From Defluviitaleaceae bacterium (lineage in GTDB: Bacteria > Bacillota > Clostridia > Lachnospirales > WQUN01): 64,000 nucleotides of DNA. This document shows, piece by piece, positions 29,687 to 35,993 of this stretch. Numbering within the stretch: position 1 is the stretch's first letter; every line of letters begins with the position of its first letter. The translations under genes and the position numbers were made by a program. A model generated the notes under the pieces. The model saw nothing but the letters and a program-made list of their open reading frames with translations, was not told the origin of the DNA and searched no databases. Location of the stretch: positions 124,001 to 188,000 of the forward strand of contig WRAH01000002.1 in assembly GCA_009780315.1 (NCBI GenBank), in the 5' to 3' direction.

Positions 29687-29830
29687 ATGAATCACATTAA
29701 AACAATTTATGCAGGTGTTTCCGAAGAAAAGCATGATGGTACAGGCTGTGGTGAATGTCAAACATCTTGTCAATCTGCCTGCAAAACATCTTGTACAGTA
29801 GCCAATCAAAACTGCGAAAAAAGCGCGTGA
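29687..29830 (+). CDS. scfA: SCIFF ranthipeptide precursor (six cysteines)
   Basis: A 47-residue precursor missed by normal ORF limits. It begins MNHIKTIYAG and has six cysteines at 21, 24, 28, 32, 36 and 43 in the SCIFF pattern (CGECQTSCQSACKTSC, then C). The family is near-universal in Clostridia and is modified by its neighbouring radical SAM enzyme to form thioether links at non-alpha carbons. AAGGA lies about 10 bases upstream. Its TGA overlaps the maturase GTG start (GTGA), so the pair is translationally coupled. Confidence 0.95.
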   Translation: MNHIKTIYAGVSEEKHDGTGCGECQTSCQSACKTSCTVANQNCEKSA

Positions 29831-31173
29831 TTCACTGTTTTAGTATCATGTCACGCAATTTGGTGCTGGACGTGGAAAGTGGTGCATTGCACCAAGTAGA
29901 TGATGTGACCATGGCTGTGCTTTCATCCATGCAAAACGCTTGCGAAGAAAACTTATCGCAAGCGTTACATGATGTACCTTCAGAAATTTCCCAAGAAATA
30001 CGCGCACTCATCGATGCGGGAAAACTTTTTAGTAAACCAAAGACATCTGTTGTACATGAACACATGAAAAATCGCAAACCTGTTGTAAAAGCACTCTGTA
30101 TGCATATGGCGCATGAGTGCAATTTGCGTTGTGTATATTGTTTTGCCGGCGATGGGAATTATTCATTAACCGACAGGGGGTTAATGTCTTTTGATGTAGG
30201 TAAAAGGGCTTTAGATTTTCTAGTTGCTCAGTCGGGTACACGTAGAAATTTAGAAATAGATTTTTTTGGCGGCGAACCCATGATGAATTTTGACGTAGTA
30301 AAAGCACTGGTGGCTTATGGCCGTTCCATTGAAACGAAAGTAGGTAAAAAATTTCGTTTCACGTTGACTACGAATGGTGCATTGCTGACTGACGATGCAA
30401 TTCACTACATAAATGAACATATGGATAATGTCGTATTAAGTCTTGATGGGCGGCCTGAAATTAACGACCGTATGCGTCTAAGCCATGATGGGCGTGGTAG
30501 CTATGCGCAAGTTTTCCCTAAAATCAAAAAGCTTGCAGATACGCGTATTTTGAATCAAATGAGCCACTATGTACGTGGTACTTTCACGCGGCATAATTTG
30601 GATTTTGTTGACGATGTACTTCATATGGCAGATGAAGGATTTAAAAATATCTCTATAGAACCAGTGGTTGCACCACCTGAAACGGATTATGCCTTACGGG
30701 AAGAAGATTTACCTACACTTTTTAAAGCGTATGAAACACTTGCAAGTGCGCTGATTAAGCGCGAAAAAGAGGGAAATGGTGTGCTTTTTTTTCATTTTGA
30801 AATGAATCTTGATGGTGGTCCTTGTATTGCTAAACGTGTGACAGGTTGCGGTGCAGGTTCAGAATATTTGGCTGTTACACCTTCTGGAAAGCTATATCCA
30901 TGTCACCAATTTGTGGGAGATGAGCGTTTTCAAGTGGGGGATTTGGAAACAGGCGTTCAACAAAGGGAATACACAAAAGATTTTAAAAATTGTCATGTGT
31001 ATGCTAAACCTGAATGTACAAGATGCTGGGCACGGTATTATTGTAGCGGCGGATGTATGGCGACTGCTTATTATGCCAATGATAGTATATTAAAGCCCGA
31101 TAAAATGAGTTGCGAACTGATGCGTAAGCGAATAGAATGCGCATTATATATTTTTGCTGAAAGGATGGACTAG
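29827..31173 (+). CDS. scfB: SCIFF radical SAM/SPASM maturase
   Basis: A 448-residue peptide-modifying radical SAM protein. The N-terminal precursor-recognition (RRE-like) segment shows the family start MIH followed by VLDVESGALHQVDD. The SAM cluster is C-x3-C-x2-C in CNLRCVYCFAGDG. The C-terminal SPASM region has the auxiliary cluster cysteines: GCGAGSEYLAV...LYPCHQF and CTRCWARYYCSGGC. The frame is open upstream to 29755, but GTG 29827 overlaps the SCIFF stop and matches family length. Confidence 0.94.
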   Translation: MIHCFSIMSRNLVLDVESGALHQVDDVTMAVLSSMQNACEENLSQALHDVPSEISQEIRALIDAGKLFSKPKTSVVHEHMKNRKPVVKALCMHMAHECNLRCVYCFAGDGNYSLTDRGLMSFDVGKRALDFLVAQSGTRRNLEIDFFGGEPMMNFDVVKALVAYGRSIETKVGKKFRFTLTTNGALLTDDAIHYINEHMDNVVLSLDGRPEINDRMRLSHDGRGSYAQVFPKIKKLADTRILNQMSHYVRGTFTRHNLDFVDDVLHMADEGFKNISIEPVVAPPETDYALREEDLPTLFKAYETLASALIKREKEGNGVLFFHFEMNLDGGPCIAKRVTGCGAGSEYLAVTPSGKLYPCHQFVGDERFQVGDLETGVQQREYTKDFKNCHVYAKPECTRCWARYYCSGGCMATAYYANDSILKPDKMSCELMRKRIECALYIFAERMD

Positions 31174-32722: not shown

Positions 32723-33577
32723 ATGCAAAGAGTTTTTATTAGTCATTCATCAAAAGATTTGCCAATAGCCGAAGCAATTTGTGATGCTTTGGAGTATGAA
32801 GACATTACTTGTTGGATTGCACCAAGAAATGGCGTTGAAACTTTTAGGGGCATTCGTGAATGTGAAATTTTTGTATTGGTGCTTTCAAGTGAGTCTAACA
32901 CATCCGTTGAAATTTATAGGGAAGTGCAACAGGCTTTTGAAGATGGAAAAATTATTGTTGCCCTAAAAGTTTCTGATATAGATATTTGTGATGAACTTTA
33001 TGATTTTCTTTCAGGATTTCAAATATTTGAATCTAAGCCTGATGATGAATATTTTGATGATTTGATTGATTTTATCCATAAGTCTGCCGTAGATAATGTT
33101 TGGAAACCTAGAAATAAAATGCAAAAGCCAATGAATATGAGAAAAGCCACTACTTATGCAGTGGCTATTGTCATGCTTATTTTTACAGTAAGTGTTGCTT
33201 TTTTTATTTTTTCTGATGGTATGCGTGCGTTTGATTTTGACGAGTATGTATCTATTATTTTGATTACAGACGGCCCAGATTTTAGACTGGATGTGGATAG
33301 GTATATTCGCGTGGTGAATGTCTCTCATTCAGACCAAGCGGGGATGTTACTCTTATCTGAAATTGACCTTGAGGGTACAGGGCTAAATAGTGCAATTGTC
33401 AATTTATTGCGTAGAGCAATGGAAGATGGTGTTCTGCAAAATCATACAAGTATACGCACAGAAATTATACAACCCCAAAATCCAGATGAAATTTGGCTTG
33501 CACGTGTAGAATATGATTTGCACTGGCTTCATTTGGAACTCAATGACTGGCTTTTGGGTGTTTCTCCGACTGTTTAA
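32723..33577 (+). CDS. TIR domain-transmembrane-RsgI-like extracellular domain fusion
   Basis: Residues 1-122 are a TIR domain (MQRVFISHSSKD, ITCWIAPRN, FVLVLSSESN) with a candidate NADase glutamate at E67 in YREVQQAF; the loop after CWIAPRN is about ten residues shorter than usual. A membrane helix covers 144-163. Residues 172-245 resemble the extracellular middle domain of RsgI anti-sigma factors (EYVSIILI, VDRYIRVVNV, then EIDLEGTGLNSAIVNLL). I know of no described protein with this order. It could be an envelope sensor with a TIR output. Its 3' end overlaps mscS convergently by four bases. Confidence 0.75.
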   Translation: MQRVFISHSSKDLPIAEAICDALEYEDITCWIAPRNGVETFRGIRECEIFVLVLSSESNTSVEIYREVQQAFEDGKIIVALKVSDIDICDELYDFLSGFQIFESKPDDEYFDDLIDFIHKSAVDNVWKPRNKMQKPMNMRKATTYAVAIVMLIFTVSVAFFIFSDGMRAFDFDEYVSIILITDGPDFRLDVDRYIRVVNVSHSDQAGMLLLSEIDLEGTGLNSAIVNLLRRAMEDGVLQNHTSIRTEIIQPQNPDEIWLARVEYDLHWLHLELNDWLLGVSPTV

Positions 33578-34404
33578 AGTTGGATTGCAGGGTCAATGAT
33601 TTTGCTATGGGATATGGATATGCCTGCGTCCTTAAAATCTTGAAGAATTGCTTTTCTTACTTCACTGCACGCTGCAAAGCTTTGCCCTATTGTTGCTGTC
33701 CACATACTGGCGCGAAGTTCTACACCATAAAGCCCTAGGGCACGTACAAAAACCGGCACTTTTGGGTCGGTTTCTTTTTGTTCATCAGTGCGGGTGTCTA
33801 CGAAATCCTTATGATTACCAATGACTTGGGCTATTATTTCACTTGCTTGAGACACATTCGCGTCATAGGTAATGATAACGTCAATGAACGCAGAGGCTTG
33901 GGCATTGTAGAAATTAGAATTTTCGATAAGTTCCTGATTCATGACAGAGTTTGGGATAATGATGCGGCTATTCATAAACGTACGAATGACTGTGTGACGG
34001 ATTGTAATGTCTTCGACGAAACCTGTAATGTTTGCATTGATTAGATGGATTCTGTCGCCTACTTCAAAAGGGCGAAAGATTGAAATAAATAGCCCATTAA
34101 ATGCATTGCCAAGAGATTCTTGTGCCGCAAGACCAATAGTTAATGCAGCAATACCAGACCCTGCTAGTAGTGCCATGGCTACATCTGAAAAATACGGAAG
34201 ATGGCTTAGGGCAAAAATAACCCCAACCATCCAAATAATGATACTGAGTACATTTTTTATAAATTTCAAATGGATTGTATCTTTTATAAACTTTCTGCAT
34301 ATTGCCCGAAATATCCGAACAATAACAATAGTGATAAAAATTATCACTGTGGTACGCAAGGCTGCCCAGCCTAAGACTTCACTTGTTAAAAAATGACTTA
34401 TCAT
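33574..34404 (-). CDS. mscS: MscS-type mechanosensitive channel
   Basis: A small-conductance mechanosensitive channel of 276 residues. Three membrane helices occupy 10-125; the pore helix region is ALLAGSGIAALTIGLAAQESLGNAFNGL; the beta domain follows with RPFEVGDRIHL and GFVEDITIRHTVIRT. It releases solutes on hypo-osmotic shock. ATG 34404 overlaps the murJ stop (ATGA) and has GGAGG upstream; an in-frame start 20 codons earlier lies inside murJ and is rejected. Confidence 0.93.
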   Translation of the reverse strand: MISHFLTSEVLGWAALRTTVIIFITIVIVRIFRAICRKFIKDTIHLKFIKNVLSIIIWMVGVIFALSHLPYFSDVAMALLAGSGIAALTIGLAAQESLGNAFNGLFISIFRPFEVGDRIHLINANITGFVEDITIRHTVIRTFMNSRIIIPNSVMNQELIENSNFYNAQASAFIDVIITYDANVSQASEIIAQVIGNHKDFVDTRTDEQKETDPKVPVFVRALGLYGVELRASMWTATIGQSFAACSEVRKAILQDFKDAGISISHSKIIDPAIQL

Positions 34405-35993
34405 GTTTTCCTCCATAATTGGGTTGTGATTTTGCGTAAGGCAGAAACGCGAAATAAGAAACATCCTAAAATATAAAGCCCTGCGCCAAGGATTACTGGA
34501 ATTAAAATGGTAAAAATCCGTGCTAGAAATGTAATTTCGTCAAAAAAGCTTTCTGTAAAGTATAATGTATGCTTTGCTACAAAGAACATTGCAATAGAAA
34601 TTATAATGATTTTAATGGTATCGATAGTCATATCTCGTGTCCAAAATAATTGGTTGGGCAACTTGTGGCGTAGTATGATAAATAGTAATATTGCCGATAT
34701 GCTAATGGATATTGATGAAGCAAGTGCAGGCCCGCCAATCCCTATGATTGGGGCAATCATGACGCTTAAAATAAGATTAATAACCATGGCAATAATCCCT
34801 GTGATAAGTGGGGCGCGTCCATATTGTATTGCATAAAATGCACGGCACAATATCACTTGTAAACCGAAGCCTAAAATACCTAGAGAAAAATAAAAAAGCG
34901 CGGTTGATGTGACCAATGTAGATTCATGTCCAAAATCTCCGCTTTGGAACACTAGGCGTACAAGAGGGTGTGCTATAGCCATCAGTCCAAAAGTCATGGG
35001 AATGAGCAAAAAAAACAGACTTTTTAGACTATCTCGCACAGATTCAGCATATGCGTTCATATTTCCTAATGTAGCAAGCCTTGATAGTTTTGGCAAAATT
35101 ACATTGGCTAAAGATAGTACAAACAGTCCTGCAATAATACTGTAAAGTCCATGTGCTAAATTGATGGCAACATAACCATGTTCACCACCATATATATTTG
35201 ACACTCTGCCGTTTACAAGTAAATTTACTGGTGCAACCCATGTTGCAACCATAACAGGCAAAGAAAGTTGTGCAATTTTGCGGAGTCCTTCATCACGCCA
35301 AGTAAAATTTCTAAAGGACAGCTTAAACCGATGTTTTACTAAGAAAGGGATTTGAATAATAATTTGCGCGCCCCATGCAATTAAGAATGTAATCGCCAGC
35401 CCATATATACCAAAGTAGTCAATGAAAAAGAAATAATACAGTAGAATAATTCCATTGGAGACAATACTCATGGCCGCAGGAATATTAAAATTGCCCAAGG
35501 ATTGCAACATACTTGCCAGTGAAAATGCCAATCCGCTTAAAAACATCAGGGGAAATAAAATTCTAAGCAAATGAACACCCAATGTAGAAATCACGACATT
35601 ATCATATTCAGCCCCTACAAATATATCAAAAATAGGGGAGGCAAGCATAATGAATAAAACGGTCATGGCTAAAGTGATGAAGCCAATCATCATTATAAAG
35701 CGGGCAGCTAAATTAAAAGCTTCCCGCTTTCCTTTTGTTTCTAAATATTCATTAAATACAGGAATAAAACTAGCAGAAAATACGGCGGCAAACATAATAT
35801 CCAAGAAAACCCGCGGTAAAACACTTGCCGCTGTAAAGGCAATGCTTTCCGCAGTGTCTGTGCCATAATGGACAACAAGCATTCGGTCACGAAAAAGCCC
35901 CATAATTTTTCCTATGAAGCCAACCACCATCATTATGCCCACTGTGGCAAAGATGGGTTTATCTTGTTGATTTACTTTGACTTTTTCATTCAT
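34401..35993 (-). CDS. murJ: MurJ/MviN lipid II flippase
   Basis: A MOP-superfamily polytopic membrane protein of about 530 residues with around 14 hydrophobic helices. MviN signature elements include GFIGKIMGLFRDRMLVVHYG near the N-terminus and RVFLDIMFAAVFSASFIPVF. It flips lipid II for peptidoglycan synthesis or a related isoprenoid-linked precursor. The start is uncertain: GTG 36011 is in frame, ATG 35993 (MNEKVKV) has a weak GAG upstream. Coupled to mscS. Confidence 0.9.
   Translation of the reverse strand: MNEKVKVNQQDKPIFATVGIMMVVGFIGKIMGLFRDRMLVVHYGTDTAESIAFTAASVLPRVFLDIMFAAVFSASFIPVFNEYLETKGKREAFNLAARFIMMIGFITLAMTVLFIMLASPIFDIFVGAEYDNVVISTLGVHLLRILFPLMFLSGLAFSLASMLQSLGNFNIPAAMSIVSNGIILLYYFFFIDYFGIYGLAITFLIAWGAQIIIQIPFLVKHRFKLSFRNFTWRDEGLRKIAQLSLPVMVATWVAPVNLLVNGRVSNIYGGEHGYVAINLAHGLYSIIAGLFVLSLANVILPKLSRLATLGNMNAYAESVRDSLKSLFFLLIPMTFGLMAIAHPLVRLVFQSGDFGHESTLVTSTALFYFSLGILGFGLQVILCRAFYAIQYGRAPLITGIIAMVINLILSVMIAPIIGIGGPALASSISISISAILLFIILRHKLPNQLFWTRDMTIDTIKIIIISIAMFFVAKHTLYFTESFFDEITFLARIFTILIPVILGAGLYILGCFLFRVSALRKITTQLWRKT

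Follow-up and report, generated by a model that had tools for sequence, protein, structure and literature searches.

At positions 32,723 to 33,577 of the window (the whole stretch of 64,000 nucleotides analysed here, from a Defluviitaleaceae genome), we find a gene for a protein of 284 amino acids, in which a TIR_2 domain, one membrane-spanning helix and a domain resembling RsgI_M follow each other. The features to which we refer below are:

32723..33577, + strand, TIR-TM-RsgI_M gene: open reading frame with ATG start, 284 amino acids plus stop
32723..33088, + strand, TIR_2 domain, predicted cytoplasmic: residues 1-122, from the Pfam match at residues 4-104 and the alignment with TIR domains of the family
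32816..32860, + strand, shortened BB loop with the beginning of alpha-B: approximately residues 32-46, IAPRN followed by GVETFRGIRE, from the alignment with five full-loop TIRs
32921..32923, + strand, codon of E67, the Glu of catalytic type: the residue is identical in all seven aligned TIRs, the sister's among them
33158..33214, + strand, single transmembrane helix: approximately residues 146-164, a 19-residue stretch with a mean hydropathy of 2.65
33215..33574, + strand, RsgI_M-like (SEAL-type) domain, predicted extracytoplasmic: residues 165-284, from Pfam, hhalign and a shuffle test
33269..33280, + strand, DGPD: residues 183-186, aligned with the scissile Asn-Pro of RsgI_M
33574..34464, - strand, convergent MscS-type channel gene (Pfam MS_channel_2nd)

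The gene is preceded by yebC and an AP_endonuc_2-type gene and followed by the convergent MscS channel gene and murJ; the neighbours are housekeeping genes and not a defence island. PADLOC revealed no defence system among the ten neighbours checked, and on the protein itself it gave partial matches of 22-28 residues but no full-length match. A viperin match of the same program at 29755-31173 was discarded, the gene being a SCIFF maturase (NCBIfam TIGR03974, 622.5 bits against a cut-off of 425). Together with the peptide gene just ahead of it, this maturase forms a SCIFF-type RiPP pair (29687-31173, + strand); the peptide (29687-29830) is 47 amino acids long and carries six cysteines in its C-terminal half. 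Elsewhere in the genome, the only other TIR_2 match is a distant ORF of 585 residues, which we rejected as a partner.

A full-length relative with the same domain order is encoded on WQSB01000036.1 of Defluviitaleaceae bacterium Co191P1bin70, a metagenome-assembled genome and the one other genome of the genus in the set analysed, and is called the sister (L017) in the following. The MscS gene is the only neighbour common to both loci, in the same place and orientation, while no TIR gene adjoins the MscS orthologue in another 15 genomes of the family. We do not build on MscS as a functional partner; the MscS-TIR pair is kept within the genus only.

The initial annotation, made from the letters of the DNA, had described a TIR domain, a single helix with the TIR domain inside and an RsgI-like domain outside, and all three elements are borne out. 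TIR_2 (PF13676) matches residues 4-104 with 47.6 bits (cut-off 28) and RsgI_M (PF23750) residues 185-244 with 28.1 bits (cut-off 25.3). The 20-residue flanks of the helix carry a net charge of +6 on the TIR side and of -4 on the opposite side, and therefore the predicted topology is N-in/C-out, which puts the TIR domain in the cytoplasm and exposes the RsgI_M-like domain to the exterior. AlphaFold2 models built on the two-sequence alignment were of low confidence (mean pLDDT 45.5 for the full protein and 43.9 for the ectodomain) and were kept out of fold searches, since such models yield meaningless matches; what is said below on function consequently draws on sequence and literature.

As the RsgI_M match covers only half of the profile (positions 10-70 of 133), it was tested further. 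A profile of our own, built from 40 RsgI_M domains with both orthologues left out, yielded 27.5 bits for the window ectodomain, where the highest-scoring of 2000 shuffles reached 7.2, and 16.2 bits for the sister ectodomain, where shuffles reached 5.4 at most. Comparison of the two-sequence ectodomain alignment with ten RsgI_M domains using hhalign gave a probability of 96.6 (E 5.5e-10), and its best PDB match, albeit weak (E 0.57), was the RsgI structure 8hep. In the sister, Pfam recognises TIR_2 (38.9 bits), while RsgI_M stays below its cut-off (20.7 against 25.3 bits). The relation to RsgI, which according to the initial annotation could have been overturned by HMM or structure searches, was upheld by these HMM and profile comparisons, and the ectodomain is, judging from its sequence, a descendant of an RsgI_M/SEAL domain.

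Self-cleavage of RsgI needs an Asn residue. In our alignment of RsgI_M domains from the class and the family, Asn-Pro occupies the site in 38 of 40 domains and Asn-Ala in the remaining two; in the cleaved RsgI structures 8hep, 8her, 8heq, 8hdj and 8u9o, chain B begins exactly at the aligned Pro, so that the placement of the scissile site is based on crystal-chain starts and alignment. The window protein reads Asp-Gly-Pro at this position, its sister Asp-Gly-Thr. With Asn-Pro missing in both orthologues, RsgI-style self-cleavage is unlikely. Two RsgI_M proteins of the same family (L013 and L014, in genomes G010 and G009) carry Asn-Ala for Asn-Pro and constitute a second lineage without the self-cleavage pair.

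This bears on the possibility that the protein signals in the manner of RsgI, its ectodomain cutting itself, an intramembrane protease following and a soluble TIR fragment being released. Helix and RsgI_M are indeed placed as in RsgI (model in PMC12203970), but given the loss of Asn-Pro in both orthologues we regard such a pathway as very improbable. A further point against it is weak: MAFFT places three extra residues just before the site, where the RsgI structure 8t9n, a single uncleaved chain across the site, has Gly-Gly-Gly, which we take to be engineered. Since HMMER places the extra length elsewhere, the insertion point is poorly fixed, and we dropped the insertion and used the loss of Asn-Pro alone.

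On the cytoplasmic side, a Glu residue in alpha-C has a catalytic role in TIR NADases. The corresponding E67 is invariant in all seven aligned TIRs, i.e. in the window protein, the sister and five relatives from the family. The BB loop has fared differently: after CWIAPRN, which is retained in the window protein, 7 residues are missing in comparison to the five same-family TIRs, and in the sister the loop is about 17 residues short and nearly gone, so that neither orthologue has the intact BB loop of TIR NADases. In SfSTING, NADase activity is lost once a glycine linker takes the place of the BB loop, although filament formation persists (PMC9402430), and the study on SpbK concludes that both NADase activity and defence depend on an intact BB loop (PMC12847820). 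Measured against these requirements, which come from distant TIRs, the NADase of the 284-residue protein is likely weak or dead. The shortened loop had already been noted in the initial annotation, and its doubt over catalysis proved right.

The same annotation had proposed an envelope-triggered TIR switch. In its enzymatic form, an outside signal would cluster the protein and start NAD+ hydrolysis or cyclisation as an abortive or stress switch. The Glu kept in both orthologues, the CWIAPRN motif of the window protein and the presence of full-loop TIR-TM-sensor proteins in the same family speak for such an enzyme; the truncated loops, the dependence of SfSTING and SpbK on this element and the housekeeping surroundings, with PADLOC matches that are partial only, speak against it, and we consider it unlikely, albeit worth keeping in mind. 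A switch in the broad sense is possible, but its RsgI-type version is opposed by the absent Asn-Pro and its NADase-type version by the truncated BB loop.

The motif losses in both halves might also indicate a decaying gene, both parts losing function and the gene being on its way out in the lineage. Rarity (two genomes only) and fast divergence would fit, the protein being 47% identical between the two genomes over its full length (TIR 47%, ectodomain 48%), in comparison to 74% for the neighbouring MscS. Neither ORF, however, is interrupted or shortened, the gene has kept its place beside MscS, and dN amounts to 0.40 for the TIR domain and 0.39 for the ectodomain, with dS saturated or 1.85. 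A dN of about 0.4 with synonymous sites near saturation (dN/dS far below 1 for each half) shows that both halves are kept by purifying selection, although this conservation is thinly sampled from two sequences. Decay is thus improbable in our view.

The distribution of the fusion is narrow. Using the membrane and outer half as query on a sample of 295 genomes of the order, no TIR plus RsgI_M fusion was found beyond those of the two genomes, and the whole protein as query revealed no further one in a sample of 398 genomes of the phylum. Viral contigs contained no relative by the protein, the ectodomain alignment or the RsgI_M alignment, while a search with the TIR alignment picked up a single locus, which carries TIR alone; the plasmid collection gave no match, and the phage collection a single record (MT836910.1), in which the match is confined to TIR and helix and the neighbours look bacterial. 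Among the genomes and the viral, plasmid and phage collections searched, the exact TIR plus RsgI_M pairing is therefore seen only in this genus, and the literature searched contained no paper combining 'TIR domain' with 'RsgI'.

Taking together the domains and their order, the orthologue, the purifying selection, the loss of Asn-Pro and the truncated BB loop with its Glu kept, we favour, with a probability of about 0.5, a membrane-anchored, non-cleaving TIR sensor/receptor or scaffold, whose NADase activity has been lost or reduced. The protein would be a single-pass, receptor-like molecule, its TIR_2 domain in the cytoplasm being joined by one helix to an RsgI_M/SEAL-derived ectodomain. The latter would not cut itself and may, as a folded module, serve in sensing or oligomerisation; the TIR domain could presumably not build the usual two-subunit NAD+ site and would have little or no NADase activity, its putative role being that of a scaffold anchored in the membrane or of a platform that binds partners. 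A signal, if any, would travel across the helix by clustering or a change of conformation, and not by proteolysis. Against the scaffold stands E67, kept in both orthologues and unneeded by a pure scaffold, and against the favoured reading as a whole that no partner was found, either as a defence system nearby or as a TIR_2 protein within reach of the gene.

Many animal TIR domains are signalling scaffolds. A bolder and rather doubtful extension would see here a bacterial TIR receptor, whose outer domain, derived from RsgI, would sense the envelope and drive the assembly of a non-catalytic TIR platform inside the cell with no proteolytic step, in plan a counterpart of Toll-like receptors. If true, an anti-sigma sensing domain would have been naturally transferred onto an immunity-type domain, with the chemistry lost in both, and it would become testable whether bacterial TIRs also act as signalling scaffolds, beyond their role as NAD+-consuming enzymes. 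If not, the protein is a rare fusion whose significance is limited.

In comparison with known systems, the protein shares with the RsgI anti-sigma factors of Bacillus subtilis and Clostridium thermocellum the cytoplasmic N-terminal domain, the one helix and the RsgI_M domain outside, but has TIR_2 where these carry RsgI_N, and lacks the Asn-Pro self-cleavage pair found in most RsgI_M domains. No sigma factor gene (sigI) is present among its neighbours, and no RsgI_N scores over cut-off in either orthologue's genome. With the TIR-STING and SpbK NADases it has the TIR fold and the Glu in alpha-C in common, whereas these enzymes require the BB loop that is truncated here (PMC9402430, PMC12847820) and have an architecture that is not based on RsgI_M. 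Proteins of the TIR-FHA type without a membrane helix occur in the same family (L007 and L008, in G021 and G023), FHA being over the Pfam cut-off in L007, a protein whose TIR has the full loop. Closest in plan are the TIR-TM-ectodomain proteins, i.e. TIR-TM-NPCBM (L005), TIR-TM-Sel1 (L003, L072) and the protein of MT836910.1 (L079), found in the same family (NPCBM in L005, Sel1 repeats in L003) or in gut Firmicutes. The gene of L079 (1560-2915) stands in a record filed as Bacteriophage sp.; its bacterial-looking neighbours, which encode a DHH-type phosphoesterase and a hydrogenase-like protein that also shows methyl-accepting features, suggest that the record is probably a bacterial contig. 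All four share the N-terminal TIR_2, the helix and a non-TIR domain beyond, which differs from RsgI_M in each case, and L005, L072 and L079 retain the full BB loop that is shortened in the 284-residue protein; TIR-NPCBM fusions have already been described (PMC8195603). The statement of the initial annotation that this order was not known to it as described hence holds for the pairing of TIR with RsgI_M, but not for the plan. Given the further TIR-TM-ectodomain proteins of the family, the TIR-TM-RsgI_M protein is a variant of a recurring TIR-helix-ectodomain plan, and as a variant it is somewhat unusual and new.
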